64,000 nt of DNA from Halalkalicoccus jeotgali B3 (lineage in GTDB: Archaea; Halobacteriota; Halobacteria; Halobacteriales; Halalkalicoccaceae), in NCBI RefSeq assembly GCF_000196895.1, contig NC_014297.1, forward strand, positions 2,618,468 through 2,682,467, in the 5' to 3' direction. Position numbers and translations under genes: made by a program. The notes beneath the pieces are model-generated. The model made no database searches. It saw only the letters and a list, made by a program, of their open reading frames with translations, and was not told the DNA's origin. Below are positions 6,604 through 12,026 of this stretch, in pieces; positions within the stretch are counted from its first letter, which is position 1; each line of letters opens with the position of its first letter.

Positions 6604-7377
6604 TCAGAACGAGATCGTCACGTCGGAGCCGACGCCAACACCGAAGGCGTCGTCGCCGCGGCCGACGTTGACCGCGAGCTCGACGTTGCCGTGGCTGCCG
6701 ACGGTGACCAGCCGGTGGCCGGGTTCGACACCCGCGTAGCTCCGCTCTGCGGGGACGGCGGTGCCGTTGACGGCGACCTCATCGCCGAAACGGTCCTCCA
6801 GAAGGCTCCCGGGGATGTTGGTGATCGCGTTCCCGAAACGATCGGTGACCAGTACCTCACCGCTCGCCTCCCGGCCCCGGAGGTCGGGTTCGGGGAAGCG
6901 AAGCTCCTCGGGGTCGTCGAGCGCCGAGAGCCACCCGAGTCCCTCCAACTCGTCGACGCCGGTTTCGTGGACCGCCGCGACAGCAGGTGCAAAAACGTCC
7001 CGGCCGTCGAAGGTGCTCCCCTCGCCGCCGGTGGCGGGGAATTCCCCGTGGTGGGGGTCGATCGCGAACACCTCAGGCTCGCCGAGTTCGCGTGCTGCGG
7101 GCATGAGGACGCCGTTGTCCGGTCCCACGAGGGCGCTCTCGCCGGCCCGGACGACGAGCGCCGCCCGGTCGGTTCCGACGCCGGGGTCGATCACCGCGAG
7201 GTGGACCGCCGGGGGAAACCACGGCAGGGTTTCACGGAGCCAGAAGGCGGCGGTGCGGGGCTCCTGTCGAGGGAGGTTGTGGGCGACGTCGACCAGTTGG
7301 GCGTCGGTGCGCGAGAGCAGGACGCCCTTCATCGCCGCGGGGTACGGCTCACCGAAATCGGAGGCGAGCGTGATCAT
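6604..7377 (-). CDS. SAM hydrolase / SAM hydroxide adenosyltransferase (DUF62)
   Basis: A 257-residue protein of the DUF62 family, which hydrolyses S-adenosylmethionine to adenosine and methionine and is related to chlorinase and fluorinase. It shows the N-terminal ITLASDFG motif, VHLAVIDPGVGT (about residues 58-69), the GPDNGVL motif (about 84-90) and the C-terminal DRFGNAITNI segment. Its start overlaps the end of nadM by four bases, so the two are probably translated together. The reason for linking NAD synthesis to SAM hydrolysis is not known; the family may control SAM levels or act as a repair enzyme. Confidence 0.9.
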   Translation of the reverse strand: MITLASDFGEPYPAAMKGVLLSRTDAQLVDVAHNLPRQEPRTAAFWLRETLPWFPPAVHLAVIDPGVGTDRAALVVRAGESALVGPDNGVLMPAARELGEPEVFAIDPHHGEFPATGGEGSTFDGRDVFAPAVAAVHETGVDELEGLGWLSALDDPEELRFPEPDLRGREASGEVLVTDRFGNAITNIPGSLLEDRFGDEVAVNGTAVPAERSYAGVEPGHRLVTVGSHGNVELAVNVGRGDDAFGVGVGSDVTISF

Positions 7378-7892
7378 ATCCCGTTGGCGTCGGTCTCGCT
7401 GACCCGCTGGATGCGCTCGATGCCGTCGGTCTCGGAGATCACGTCGGTGACGGGTCCGGGAACGAGACTCTCCCAGTCCTCGTCCTCGATCATGCGTTCT
7501 CGCACCTCCGTCCCTTCGAGTTCCTCGCGGTTGAACATCGGGGACTGGCGGACCTCGACGCCCGCCTCCTCGAAGAGTTGAATCACGAGGGGGTTGTTCG
7601 AGTAGGCGACCTCGAAGTCGGGGCTCATGCTCTGGACGTGACTGACCCAGACGGAGTTGCGATCGAGGTCCTCGATGGGGACGGCGTAGGTCACCAGATC
7701 GTACTCGACGAGCGACTTGGTGATCATCATGATGCGCTCGCCGGCGGTAAAGGGATCGTGCCTGGAGTGTGAATCGCCGGCACTGCCGATCCCGAGGACG
7801 AGTTCGTCGACCTCGCTCGCGATTCGGTCGACCATGCGGTGGTGACCGTTGTGGTACGGCTGGAACCGACCGATATAGAACCCCCGTGTCAT
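7374..7892 (-). CDS. nadM: Nicotinamide-nucleotide adenylyltransferase (archaeal type)
   Basis: A 172-residue enzyme joining NMN and ATP to form NAD. The nucleotidyltransferase signature GRFQPYHNGHHRM (HxGH type) is at residues 7-19, and a C-terminal MIEDEDW region follows the usual archaeal layout. The ATG at 7892 is chosen because it places the conserved TRGFYIGRFQP start at the N-terminus; an upstream in-frame codon would add 18 residues. It is the first gene of a two-gene operon with the SAM hydrolase and is divergent from lonB, 112 bases away. Confidence 0.93.
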   Translation of the reverse strand: MTRGFYIGRFQPYHNGHHRMVDRIASEVDELVLGIGSAGDSHSRHDPFTAGERIMMITKSLVEYDLVTYAVPIEDLDRNSVWVSHVQSMSPDFEVAYSNNPLVIQLFEEAGVEVRQSPMFNREELEGTEVRERMIEDEDWESLVPGPVTDVISETDGIERIQRVSETDANGI

Positions 7893-8004
7893 CGTCCTGT
7901 CGAACCCGACAGGACGTGCCACCAAAAGCGTAGCGAGTCCGCCCAACGGCAGGGAGAAAGTATATCAGTTGCGCAACCTTCGTTTTCATCAGCGACCAGA
8001 TTCT

Positions 8005-10047
8005 ATGAGCAACGAGAGAGACACCGAAGATCGCCCCGTAGACGGGGCGAGCGAGTCGTCGGACCACGACCCCGGGCCCGACGACGTCGAGGAGGAGTCC
8101 ACGCCCGAGGACTCGGGTGGCGGGTTCGGCAGCGACGTCGATGTCGAGTTCGACGCCGAGATCTCCGAGGACGACGACGACTTGCTGGGTGGGTTGCGAG
8201 TCGAGTCGACCGAGGACATCAAGGTCCCCGAAAAGCTGGTCGATCAGGTGATCGGCCAAGATCACGCCCAGGAGATCGTCCGCAAGGCCGCCAAACAGCG
8301 CCGACACATCCTGATGATCGGCTCGCCCGGGACGGGCAAGTCGATGCTGGCGAAAGCGATGACCCAGCTCCTCCCGAACGAGGACCTCCAGGACGTCCTG
8401 ATCTACCACAATCCCGACGACGGCAACGAGCCGAAGGTCAGGACAGTGCCCGCCGGAAAGGGCGATCAGATCGTCGACGCCCACAAGGAGGAAGCCCGCA
8501 AGCGAAACACGATGCGGACGATCCTCATGTGGCTGATCATCATCGTCATTCTCGGATATTCGCTGTTCATCGGGAACATCCTGCTTGGGATCATCGCCGC
8601 CGCGATCATTTACCTCGCGTTCAAGTACGCGAACCGCGGCAGCGACGCGATGATCCCGAACCTCCTGATCAACAACGCCGACCGCACCACCGCGCCCTTC
8701 GAGGACGTAACGGGTGCCCACGCCGGCGCACTGCTGGGCGACGTCCGTCACGACCCGTTCCAGTCGGGCGGGATGGAGACGCCGAGTCACGATCGCGTGG
8801 AAGCGGGTGGGATCCACAAGTCCCACCGCGGCGTGCTGTTCATCGACGAGATCAACACGCTCGACGTCCGCAGCCAGCAACACCTGATGACCGCGATCCA
8901 GGAGGGCGAGTTCTCCATTACTGGCCAGTCCGAGCGCTCCTCGGGTGCGATGGTCCAGACCGAGCCGGTCCCGTGTGACTTCATCATGGTCGCAGCCGGG
9001 AACCGCGACGCACTGGAGAACATGCATCCTGCACTGCGGTCGCGGATCAAGGGCTACGGCTACGAGGTGTTCATGGACGACACCATCGAGGACACCCCCG
9101 AGATGCGCCGCAAATATGCGAGGTTCGTCGCCCAAGAGGTCGAAAACGACGGGCGGCTGCCCCACTTCACGCGCGAGGCCGTCGAGGAGGTCATCCTCGA
9201 GGCCAAGCGCCGGTCGGGGCGCAAGGGTCACCTGACGCTTCTCTTTCGGAGCCTCGGCGGGCTGGTTCGGGTCGCAGGCGACATCGCCCGGGCGGAGGAC
9301 GCGGAGTTCACCACCCGTGATCACGTCCTGCAGGCGAAGAAACGCTCGCGCTCGATCGAACAGCAACTCGCCGACACGTACATCGAGCGCTACAGCGACT
9401 ACGACATGACGATGAACGAGGGCGGCGTCGTCGGCCGCGTCAACGGCCTTGCGGTGATGGGCGACGACAGCGGCATCGTCAAGCCGATCATGGCCGAGGT
9501 CACCCAGGGCCACGGCGAGGTCATCGCGACCGGGAAGCTCCAGGAGATCGCCCAGGAGTCGGTTCAGAACGTCTCGGCGATCATCAAGAAGTTCACCAAC
9601 CAGGACATCAACGAACTGGACGTTCACATCCAGTTCCTCCAGAGCTACGAGGGCGTCGAGGGCGACTCGGCGTCGATCTCGATCGCCACAGCAGTGATCA
9701 GCGCTTTGGAGGAAATCCCGATCGCCCAGGACGTCGCGATGACCGGCTCGCTGTCGGTCCGGGGCGACGTCCTGCCCGTCGGCGGCGTCACCCACAAGAT
9801 CGAGGCCGCCGCGAAGGCCGGTATCGATACGGTGATCATTCCCAAATCCAACGAACAGGACGTGATGATCGAGGACGAATACGAAGAACAGGTCGAGGTC
9901 GTCCCCGTCAGCCACATCAGCGAGGTGCTCGAGATCGCACTGGTCGGCGAACCCGAAAAGGACGGGCTGGTCGACCGCCTGAAGAACATCACGACCGCGC
10001 TCGAACGGGATCGGCAGGTCCCGAGCGGCTCGCCGACGCCGCAGTAG
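8005..10047 (+). CDS. lonB: Membrane-anchored ATP-dependent protease LonB
   Basis: A 680-residue archaeal Lon. It has an acidic N-terminal tail (1-65), an AAA+ module with Walker A GSPGTGKS (106-113) and Walker B VLFIDEIN, and a transmembrane hairpin inserted within the AAA+ domain (about residues 172-210, starting ILMWLIIIVILGYSLFIG). The C-terminal protease domain has the catalytic Ser at about 555 (GDSAS) and Lys at about 598 (VTHK). In haloarchaea, LonB is the essential membrane protease that controls membrane lipids and carotenoids. The ATG at 8005 is the first in-frame ATG. A CPBP protease gene begins two bases after its stop. Confidence 0.96.
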   Translation: MSNERDTEDRPVDGASESSDHDPGPDDVEEESTPEDSGGGFGSDVDVEFDAEISEDDDDLLGGLRVESTEDIKVPEKLVDQVIGQDHAQEIVRKAAKQRRHILMIGSPGTGKSMLAKAMTQLLPNEDLQDVLIYHNPDDGNEPKVRTVPAGKGDQIVDAHKEEARKRNTMRTILMWLIIIVILGYSLFIGNILLGIIAAAIIYLAFKYANRGSDAMIPNLLINNADRTTAPFEDVTGAHAGALLGDVRHDPFQSGGMETPSHDRVEAGGIHKSHRGVLFIDEINTLDVRSQQHLMTAIQEGEFSITGQSERSSGAMVQTEPVPCDFIMVAAGNRDALENMHPALRSRIKGYGYEVFMDDTIEDTPEMRRKYARFVAQEVENDGRLPHFTREAVEEVILEAKRRSGRKGHLTLLFRSLGGLVRVAGDIARAEDAEFTTRDHVLQAKKRSRSIEQQLADTYIERYSDYDMTMNEGGVVGRVNGLAVMGDDSGIVKPIMAEVTQGHGEVIATGKLQEIAQESVQNVSAIIKKFTNQDINELDVHIQFLQSYEGVEGDSASISIATAVISALEEIPIAQDVAMTGSLSVRGDVLPVGGVTHKIEAAAKAGIDTVIIPKSNEQDVMIEDEYEEQVEVVPVSHISEVLEIALVGEPEKDGLVDRLKNITTALERDRQVPSGSPTPQ

Positions 10048-10048
10048 C

Positions 10049-10744
10049 GTGCCCGAGTGGGCGACGTTCGTCGGACTGTCGGGCGTCGTCACCGGTTTAC
10101 TTCTCGCGCTGTCGCGAACGTCCCAGTCGACACTCGAAGAGCCCGACCCCGATGTCGAACTCACGAGCGGACTCATGCTGGCGAACGTCGCGCTCTCACA
10201 GGGACTCTTTCTGTGTCTGTTGCTCGTGGCCGCTTGGTACACGCAGATACCACTCGAAGCACTCGGTATCGGGACGAGCACGGCGAGGACGACGCTTTCG
10301 GTCGGTGTGGGACTCGGGGTCGTCCTCTATCTGGCGTCGGAACTCGGTGGCGCGACGGCCGAGCGACTGGGAGGCGAGTACGACGAGGGGTTGCGCGAAC
10401 TGCTGGCACCCGGTTCGGCCGGCGGGTGGGTCGTCCTGCTCGGGGTCGTCCTCCCGGTGATCGCCGTCTTCGAGGAGTTCCTGTTTCGGGGCGTGCTGAT
10501 CGGCGTCGTCTGGGCTGGCTACGGCGTCTCGCCGTGGCTGCTTGCCGTTCCGTCTTCGGTCCTCTTTGCGGCCGGTCACAGCGCACAGGGAATCACGGGT
10601 GTCCTCGTTACGGGACTGCTGGGGCTCGCCCTCGCGGTGGCGTTCGTCCTCACGGAGAGCCTTCTAGCCGTGGTCCTCGCCCACTACCTCGTGAACGCCC
10701 TCGAATTCGTGATTCACGAAGGGCTCGGCGTCGAGTGGACCTAA
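10049..10744 (+). CDS. CPBP (CAAX-like) intramembrane metalloprotease
   Basis: A 231-residue, strongly hydrophobic protein with several predicted membrane helices. The three Abi/CPBP motifs are present: FEEFLFRG (EExxxR, residues 142-147), FAAGH at about 173-177 and HYLVNA near residue 217. These residues form the metal site of Rce1-like intramembrane proteases. Some members are active proteases and others appear to serve as immunity or scaffold proteins, so catalysis is probable, not certain. It starts with GTG one base after the lonB stop codon, so the two are co-transcribed, suggesting a shared role in membrane protein quality control. Confidence 0.88.
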   Translation: MPEWATFVGLSGVVTGLLLALSRTSQSTLEEPDPDVELTSGLMLANVALSQGLFLCLLLVAAWYTQIPLEALGIGTSTARTTLSVGVGLGVVLYLASELGGATAERLGGEYDEGLRELLAPGSAGGWVVLLGVVLPVIAVFEEFLFRGVLIGVVWAGYGVSPWLLAVPSSVLFAAGHSAQGITGVLVTGLLGLALAVAFVLTESLLAVVLAHYLVNALEFVIHEGLGVEWT

Positions 10745-11196
10745 CCGCCCGCTTCGATCGCTCGGAGTCCGCGGTCGAGACCGCCGGGGAGAACGTCGGG
10801 TCCGTCGACGATCCGGTGGCTCGGAATCAGGATCGGAACGGGGTTCGCCTCCAGTGCGGTTCTGACGGCGTTCTCGTCGTCCTCGTCGAACCCCGGCGTT
10901 CGTCGGGCGAGGCTCGCCACGTCGGTCGTTTCGCCGTACGGTATCTCGCACACCCGTTCGAGGACCGCCCGGTGGTCGGTCGGGACGGTGAGCGCGATCG
11001 GGACGTCCTCGAAGTCATCGGGTTCGCCGTCAATGTAGTCCTCGATCCGATCGAGTAGCGCGTGCTCTCGCGTCGCCTCCTCGGAGGGGGCGTCGGGTAT
11101 CGAGAGGCTAATCACCCGACCGGAGGCGATCCCGATCTGTACGACCCCCACGTCACCGACCTCGCGGGCGTAGATCCCTGTCTCGCTTTCGTCCAT
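10741..11196 (-). CDS. O6-alkylguanine-DNA alkyltransferase homologue lacking the active-site Cys
   Basis: A 151-residue protein whose C-terminal half is the Ogt/MGMT DNA-binding domain: [15 protein letters not shown] (helix-turn-helix entry), [16 protein letters not shown] and a terminal [12 protein letters not shown]. In active enzymes the core motif is PCHR; here the codon (10815-10817 region, minus strand) is AGC, giving PSHR. Without Cys, suicidal alkyl transfer is not possible. It may act like alkyltransferase-like (ATL) proteins, which usually have PWHR and flag lesions for nucleotide excision repair. The ATG at 11196 avoids a 14-residue upstream extension. The stop codon overlaps that of the convergent CPBP gene. 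Confidence 0.85.
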
Positions 11197-11273
11197 ATCC
11201 GACACAAGTCGGAGGGAGACTTCAACCCCGGGTCGCAAGTCTTATGTGCAAATCAGTACGTTATCGTACAGTA

Positions 11274-12026
11274 ATGAACACTAGCGAGCCGATCGCGCCG
11301 ACCGTCGAGTCCATCCTCGCGGCGGCGTGCGAACGCGAAGGGGGCAAAGAGCGCCTCTCGGTCGAGGCCCGATCGTTCCCCGAGGCGGTCGCGGAGGCCG
11401 AGAAGGACGGACGAACGCCGGTGATCGCCGAGGTCAAACCGACCAGCCCGACGACCAAGGGCGTCCGCGAGGACGATCCAGTAGAACTGGCCCGGGAGAT
11501 GGTCGCTGGCGGGGCAACGGCGCTGTCAGTACTCACCGAACCCGAGCATTTCGGGGGATCGCCCGAGACTCTACGGCGGGTTCGTGAGGCGGTGGACGTC
11601 CCGGTGCTGCGCAAGGACTTCCTGCTGCGCGGGGAGCAACTCGACGTCGTCGAGGCCGACCTGGTCCTCCTGATCGCCCGGTTCGTCGACGACCTCGCGG
11701 GGCTCGTCTCGGCGGCCAAGGAGCGGGGGTTCCAGCCGCTCGTCGAGGTCCACACCGCGGCGGAGCTCGGGGAAGCGATCGAGGCCGGCGCCGACGTCGT
11801 CGGGATCAACAACCGGGATCTCGCCCAGCTGGAGGTCGACCTCGCCACCTTCGAATCGGTCGCGAGCGAGGCGCCCGAGGACGTGCTGTTGGTCGCCGAA
11901 AGCGGGATCGGCTCGAAAAAGGACGTCCGTCGGATGCGCGAGGCGGGCGCGGACGCGCTGTTGATCGGCACTGCCATCATGGACGGCGACGTACGCGAGA
12001 ACACGAGGGAGTTCACCACGACATGA
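11274..12026 (+). CDS. trpC: Indole-3-glycerol-phosphate synthase
   Basis: A 250-residue TIM-barrel enzyme of tryptophan synthesis that converts CdRP to indole-3-glycerol phosphate. Visible are [14 protein letters not shown] (catalytic Lys, about residues 46-60), [10 protein letters not shown] (catalytic Lys, about 107-116), GINNRDL and LLVAESGI with the phosphate-binding [12 protein letters not shown] near the end. It opens a trpC-trpB-trpA operon with 4-base ATGA overlaps to trpB and from trpB to trpA. The ATG at 11274 is chosen over an upstream in-frame ATG because the family begins near this point and the upstream region has promoter character. Confidence 0.96.

Follow-up and report, generated by a model that had tools for sequence, protein, structure and literature searches.

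The closest described relatives of the protein analyzed here are the alkylguanine transferases of the AGT/Ogt type, such as SsOGT and human MGMT (PF01035, TIGR00589), and the ATL proteins, such as Atl1 of S. pombe and YbaZ of E. coli. According to the sections of PMC10779285 on these families, AGTs share the PCHR motif, a tyrosine, an arginine finger, an asparagine hinge, and a His-Glu pair, and the helix-turn-helix (HTH) segment of AGT binds DNA non-specifically in the minor groove. In the same sections, ATLs are described as keeping the tyrosine and the arginine finger, mostly carrying tryptophan in place of the cysteine, and having neither the N-terminal domain nor the asparagine hinge. Our search, which covered mostly open-access literature, found nothing on an Asp-type or haloarchaeal AGT/ATL protein. 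A term search in the main text of a review of replication and repair in Haloferax (PMC7776575) gave no match for methylguanine, Ogt, or direct reversal.

An Ogt homolog with serine at the cysteine position in Halalkalicoccus jeotgali

The DNA analyzed is a stretch of 64,000 nucleotides from H. jeotgali B3 (contig NC_014297.1), hereafter called the window. It carries a gene that we call AGTL, whose main features are the following (Cys145 and similar positions refer to human AGT numbering).

10741 to 11196, minus strand: AGTL, gene of an Asp-type AGT-fold protein of 151 amino acids (ORF; PF01035, 39.3 bits)
10819 to 10821, minus strand (read 10821-10819): codon AGC of Ser126, equivalent to Cys145 of human AGT (sequence and alignments)
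10795 to 10797, minus strand: codon of Asp134 in the shortened active-site loop (DGPD), 8 residues past Ser126 (site/loop count in 171 proteins)

The ORF runs from an ATG at 11196 to the stop at 10741; starting instead at a TTG at 11238 would give a longer open frame. The PF01035 match lies above the Pfam cut-off of 27 bits; the 33 bits obtained with TIGR00589, the NCBI superfamily model, lie under its cut-off of 46.4. As a sequence-only reading of this DNA had noticed, PSHR with an AGC codon replaces PCHR. A sequencing error at Ser126 was considered and rejected, since a genome of the same genus (G194) also has serine at this site, encoded by TCA, and other members of the genus have glycine or aspartate. 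Because the two serine codons differ, the two serines may be separate events. The window protein has one cysteine, located away from the active-site position. The question of another Ogt in the genome, raised in the earlier reading, was answered by the absence of a second PF01035 match at E 0.001 in the host genome (3.7 Mb, 98.58% complete). Among the matches listed, all six sampled genomes of the genus likewise had no PF01035 match beyond AGTL, and the second haloarchaeal Ogt described below was not found in them. The scan used for viral contigs detected no relatives of AGTL.

The AlphaFold models were confident, with a pLDDT of 90.9 for the window protein and 95.7 for an Asp-type member of the family, and the order of structural elements is the same in both. 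In a fold search, the Asp-type model matched Sulfolobus OGT (4zyd_A) with a Z score of 18.0 and an rmsd of 1.9 over 139 residues. N-terminal strands are predicted in both models, and the Asp-type model aligns over its full length with two-domain AGTs. Pairwise comparison of seven proteins of the genus (21 pairs) gave dN of 0.13-0.30, dS of 0.51-1.07, and dN/dS of about 0.20-0.38. The best PDB sequence match of the window protein is SNAP-tag, in which AVKTAL, presumably an engineered stretch, resembles AVRTAL in residues 110-116 of AGTL (AVRTALE, 10846-10866, minus strand).

Active-site residues of AGTL across Halobacteria

A protein search with the window protein as the query found an ortholog in 390 of 391 sampled Halobacteria genomes; the sole genome without a match was G339, which is 88% complete. 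At the cysteine position, 373 of the 391 genomes have aspartate, seven serine, five threonine, three cysteine, one glycine, and one alanine, and one has no gene. The first 30 ortholog loci read gave a similar picture (Asp 27, Ser 2, Gly 1). The aspartate count comprises 367 genomes with a DNA motif for N-P-x-P-x-x-x-x-D-H-R-[VI], counted from the motif and not individually traced to the ortholog, and six genomes in which a motif variant lies outside the DNA pattern (G023, G054, G219, G221, G239, and G330). The reversed control motif gave 0 matches, and the 24 genomes beyond the 367 were read singly. Genomes having the Asp motif have it in single copy, except for two copies in G064, among the matches listed. 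Serine occurs in G000, G194, G002, G366, and G128 and in the deeply branching G217 and G382, threonine in G116, G179, G267, G301, and G381, cysteine in G328 of the main clade and in the deep G021 and G285, glycine in G225, and alanine in G346; the set in which non-Asp residues were read does not contain loci L010, L027, and L221. The Thermus ATL TTHA1564 also has alanine at this position. Threonine is frequent in one genus group (g48), where it is found in five of six sampled genomes (L253, L254, L257, L259, and L261) with serine in the sixth (L256), and it was further seen in loci L116 and L124, one of which is from a Halovenus MAG.

The comparison of haloarchaeal homologs thus bears on how the serine was first read. 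It is real and, as had been supposed, rare (7 of 391 genomes); it is not special to this gene, given that loss of the cysteine is nearly class-wide and that the usual residue is aspartate. The serine is a local variation within an Asp-type pseudo-alkyltransferase family in which aspartate is the rule, and in Halalkalicoccus itself the residue varies among Asp, Ser, and Gly. The opposing scenario that had been considered, many relatives with cysteine and a lone mutation in a degrading gene, is contradicted by the three Cys genomes among 391 and by a gene that is not decaying.

The rest of the active site was examined in an alignment of 158 distinct main-clade proteins, or 171 after the addition of 13 more. 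Asn137 and His146 are present in all 171, Arg147 and Glu172 in 170 each, and Pro138 and Pro140 in 169 each; the window protein has Asn137, His146, and Glu172. The 13 added proteins are more variable in the motif, with cysteine for Arg147 in L252 and with Pro138 and Pro140 varied in two each. Position 145 is occupied by Asp in 156 proteins, Thr in 7, Ser in 5, and Gly, Ala, and Cys in 1 each, and by Trp in none. The base-flipping Tyr114 and Lys165 are found in 0 of the 171; Val takes the place of the former in 145 proteins, the window protein included, and Glu that of the latter in 113. The arginine finger Arg128 is present in 29 of the 171 and is replaced by Asn in the window protein. The "Arg-containing helix" described as well kept in the earlier reading needs one correction: the arginine of NAVRTAL, present in 145 of 158 main-clade proteins, stands at human Gly131, one helical turn from Arg128. 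The conclusion that AGTL should not be a suicide methyltransferase is supported, because the site has no cysteine and there is no conserved substitute, 136 of the 158 proteins being free of cysteine altogether. Judging from the missing residue, AGTL should not carry out alkyl transfer.

The surroundings of the site differ as well. His146 and Glu172 are separated by 20 residues in 156 of the 158 main-clade proteins and by 19 in the other two, versus 24 in all four proteins of a deep haloarchaeal group and in 10 of 11 Ogts of other archaea, and by this measure the active-site loop of the main clade is about four residues shorter. Tyr114 and Lys165 are present in all four deep proteins, and the tyrosine, Arg128, the cysteine, and Lys165 in 11 of 11 Ogts of other archaea. 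Averaged over the main clade, the charge of the segment 93-137, which contains the HTH, is -6.0 (range -10 to 0); the deep group averages -4.2, the second haloarchaeal Ogt -1.8, and the Ogts of other archaea +4.7. Of the 156 main-clade proteins that have aspartate at the site, 122 have serine in the loop eight positions further on. The reverse pair, a site serine combined with a loop aspartate, was found in the window protein and in L193, which belong to different families and hold the only two loop aspartates among the 171 proteins. Two of the five main-clade Ser proteins thus show the swap and the other three do not (nominal P 7e-4, relatedness ignored). Since the pattern was seen after the fact, in two lineages, and with relatedness ignored, it is only suggestive; it hints at a direct contact between the site and the loop that may close the pocket.

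Taken by the features of the described families, AGTL shares with archaeal Ogt and human AGT the two-domain fold, the PF01035 domain, the asparagine hinge, P-x-HR with its histidine, and the terminal glutamate, and differs from them in the loss of the active-site cysteine, the base-flipping tyrosine, Lys165, and in most members the arginine finger, as well as in the shorter loop and the acidic HTH segment. With ATLs it shares a C-terminal AGT fold without the cysteine (Z of about 6 for the Asp-type model with 3gva and 3gx4). However, it has Asp or Ser rather than Trp at the site and has not kept the tyrosine and arginine finger, whereas the N-terminal domain and the asparagine hinge, which are absent from ATLs as outlined in the sections of PMC10779285 cited above, are present. 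Fold and descent place AGTL in the AGT superfamily, but it is neither an AGT nor a typical ATL as these are functionally defined.

Descent from archaeal Ogt

For the tree, 91 proteins were used after thinning at 72% identity, with the column of the site removed and all non-Asp rows of the earlier-read set kept. In this quick tree, 45 of 88 inner forks were drawn open. The main haloarchaeal clade was recovered (99) and was joined with the four deep haloarchaeal Cys/Ser proteins (97). Together they were placed among the non-haloarchaeal Cys-type Ogts of archaea, and the second haloarchaeal Ogt branched elsewhere. The residue states at the cysteine site need at least seven changes on the tree. 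The cysteine is kept in two of the four deep haloarchaeal lineages. The second haloarchaeal Ogt has the Pfam domain and the organism class in common with AGTL and forms a separate branch. In the 30 distinct proteins of this type that were read, the cysteine and Tyr114 are present in 30 each and Lys165 in 29, while Arg128 is found in none (Val or Ile in 30 of 30); the presence of Arg128 therefore does not separate the classes. Many genomes contain such an Ogt with a strong PF01035 match besides a weakly matching AGTL, among the matches listed.

Gene order was compared using the genes on the stop-codon side of AGTL in the window.

7374 to 7946, minus strand: gene that we take from its sequence to be NMN-adenylyltransferase-like, with relatives also beside Cys-type Ogt in other archaea (ORF)
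7969 to 10047, plus strand: gene of what is presumably a lonB-type protease, so named from its sequence and context (ORF, neighbor listing)
10049 to 10744, plus strand: gene of a CPBP-type membrane protease, convergent with AGTL and overlapping its stop by 4 bases (ORF)

The CPBP name was given by analogy with HVO_0784, which is reported beside lonB in Haloferax in a section of PMC9263693. The lon and CPBP genes separate the NMN-adenylyltransferase-like gene from AGTL in the window. In five of the 12 loci read from other archaea, an NMN-adenylyltransferase-like gene lies beside Ogt. Of the four deep haloarchaeal loci (L062-L065), three contain both this gene and lon. In all four, the Cys/Ser-type Ogt gene is directly downstream of a TBP gene on the same strand, and TBP is within the locus in three of the 12 Ogt loci of other archaea. 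The tree and the gene order together indicate that AGTL is a vertically inherited archaeal Ogt.

Possible roles of AGTL

The explanation that we favor, and to which we give somewhat better than even chances, is that AGTL is the haloarchaeal ortholog of archaeal Ogt and that, when haloarchaea had only begun to diversify, it became a non-catalytic protein of the AGT fold whose pocket is closed and which works through protein-protein contacts. The sequences show that the cysteine has been replaced, mostly by aspartate, that the base-flipping tyrosine and Lys165 have been lost, and that the active-site loop has been shortened, with the fold, the asparagine hinge, His-Arg, and the terminal glutamate almost fixed under purifying selection. 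The former alkylguanine pocket may have been closed in part by a polar contact of the residue at the cysteine position with the shortened loop, putatively Asp-Ser in most members and Ser-Asp in the window protein. A protein of this kind would neither take up a flipped base nor transfer alkyl groups, and could act as a scaffold or regulator through protein-protein contacts. That the pocket residue varies among Asp, Ser, and Gly in Halalkalicoccus suits a structural role of this residue better than a catalytic one. However, His146 and Glu172, which activate the cysteine in AGT, are near-invariant, and the structural explanation accounts for this only if the fold needs them. The closed pocket also has to be set against one main-clade member with cysteine (G328) and one broken copy (G316), and we counted against it that no partner or phenotype for AGTL was found. 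In almost every haloarchaeon sampled, AGTL was probably put to other use after the loss of the cysteine. More tentatively, and at somewhat less than even chances, a whole archaeal class may have re-used an inherited suicide repair enzyme for a new job, with Cys changed to Asp and the base pocket rebuilt, and left alkyl repair to the second, patchily distributed Ogt.

An ATL-like sensor that binds O6-alkylguanine lesions, leaves them unrepaired, and passes them to UvrABC seems unlikely to us. Such a sensor for nucleotide excision repair had been proposed from the sequence. The part of the proposal that stands is a protein without the cysteine whose motif and fold are kept; a UvrA gene is present in the host genome, and another route for handling lesions would be useful in a genus in which six genomes have no other PF01035 match among the matches listed. 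The proposal is weakened by the shorter pocket loop and by the absence of the residues that AGTs and ATLs have in common in the sections of PMC10779285 considered here, namely the tyrosine (0 of 171) and the arginine finger (29 of 171), as well as by the N-terminal domain and asparagine hinge that ATLs do not have. The argument from Arg128 is itself weak, as the Cys-type second haloarchaeal Ogt is also without it. The acidic HTH segment speaks against a sensor too, but acidity is general in haloarchaeal proteins and the HTH is negative in the deep Cys/Ser group, so a charge of this kind is compatible with binding to DNA at high salt.

It is quite improbable, in our judgment, that AGTL is a new kind of enzyme or ligand sensor using an Asp-His-Glu set in the old pocket. 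The retention of His146 (171 of 171), Asn137 (171 of 171), and Glu172 (170 of 171) after the cysteine was lost, together with Asp in 373 of 391 genomes, would be expected of such a set. On the other hand, Ser, Thr, Gly, Ala, and Cys replace the aspartate in otherwise normal members, and the shortening of the loop should reduce the space in the pocket.

The start-codon side of the gene suggested that AGTL might act locally as a regulator of trpCBA, an operon transcribed divergently from it; there the window contains the following features.

11274 to 12026, plus strand: gene that we take from its sequence to be trpC (indole-3-glycerol-phosphate synthase), divergent from AGTL, with a presumed start at 11274 (ORF, TrpC matches)
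11242 to 11272, plus strand: conserved element TTATGTGCA-N5-GTACGTT-N3-GTACA just upstream of trpC (locus comparison)

In 100 of 126 loci (99 of 126 with a trimmed query, or 97 of 124 distinct proteins), AGTL and trpC are divergent neighbors, and in 80 of these 100 loci, the window included, the gap is 200 bp or less. The gap holds the conserved element, with the consensus TTnTGTnCA-N5-GTnCnTT-N3-GTACA across loci and a single site in the host genome. Our first impression of an operator shared by AGTL and trpC was weakened by the genomes in which AGTL lies elsewhere. A search covered 17 of the 26 loci without adjoining trpC, with the four deep loci, L116, L122, L124, L149, and L151, some of them on short contigs, outside it; 15 of the 17 genomes have one element each and two have none, and all 15 sites precede trpC. 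In loci where 0.6-4 kb separate the two genes, the element is likewise found at trpC. It is a feature of trpC that travels with trpC and not with AGTL, and the adjacency therefore does not support a role of AGTL in trp regulation. The four deep loci adjoin TBP rather than trp, and the AGT HTH, which is acidic in AGTL, binds the minor groove non-specifically according to the relevant section of PMC10779285; we regard a trp regulator as very improbable. Another interpretation of the element, an N-terminal extension of TrpC, was rejected on account of in-frame stops in some loci, judged by eye without a count. With its GTACA-type boxes, the element is perhaps a tryptophan operator of haloarchaea. 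The TrpY box is TGTACA, and we mention a TrpY-like regulator as the binder of the trpC element purely as an idea. TRP boxes and unexamined haloarchaeal TrpY homologs are mentioned in a passage of PMC6737238.

That AGTL is a decaying Ogt relic, for which the lost catalytic residue, the broken copy in G316, and the lack of a match in G339 might speak, is hardly credible, because the near-class-wide presence (390 of 391 genomes), the dN/dS of about 0.20-0.38, the near-invariant motif, and the confident fold show that the family is not generally decaying. A pseudogene as the general state was rejected on the same grounds of breadth, dN/dS, and model confidence, and for the window gene the earlier view that it is not decayed agrees with the open frame, the dN/dS in the genus, and the pLDDT. 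In the broken copy of G316 (L264 and L267), the ortholog is broken into pieces in different frames, and one piece contains five TGA codons; a frameshift or assembly error is the likely cause.

If the favored explanation is true, genomes such as the six sampled from this genus may have no recognizable O6-methylguanine alkyltransferase, and a gene that is likely annotated as a methyltransferase could not be one. The Cys, Ser, and Asp forms within one ortholog group constitute an evolutionary series in which to explore what the AGT fold is capable of once the cysteine is gone. Since AGTL is near-universal and its Asp motif mostly single-copy among the matches listed, its deletion in a tractable haloarchaeon should be informative. 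A natural test case for whether the cysteine alone gives activity is provided by L250 of G328, a main-clade member with cysteine at the site (PCHRVRDGPSAAPP) and yet an Asp-type loop.
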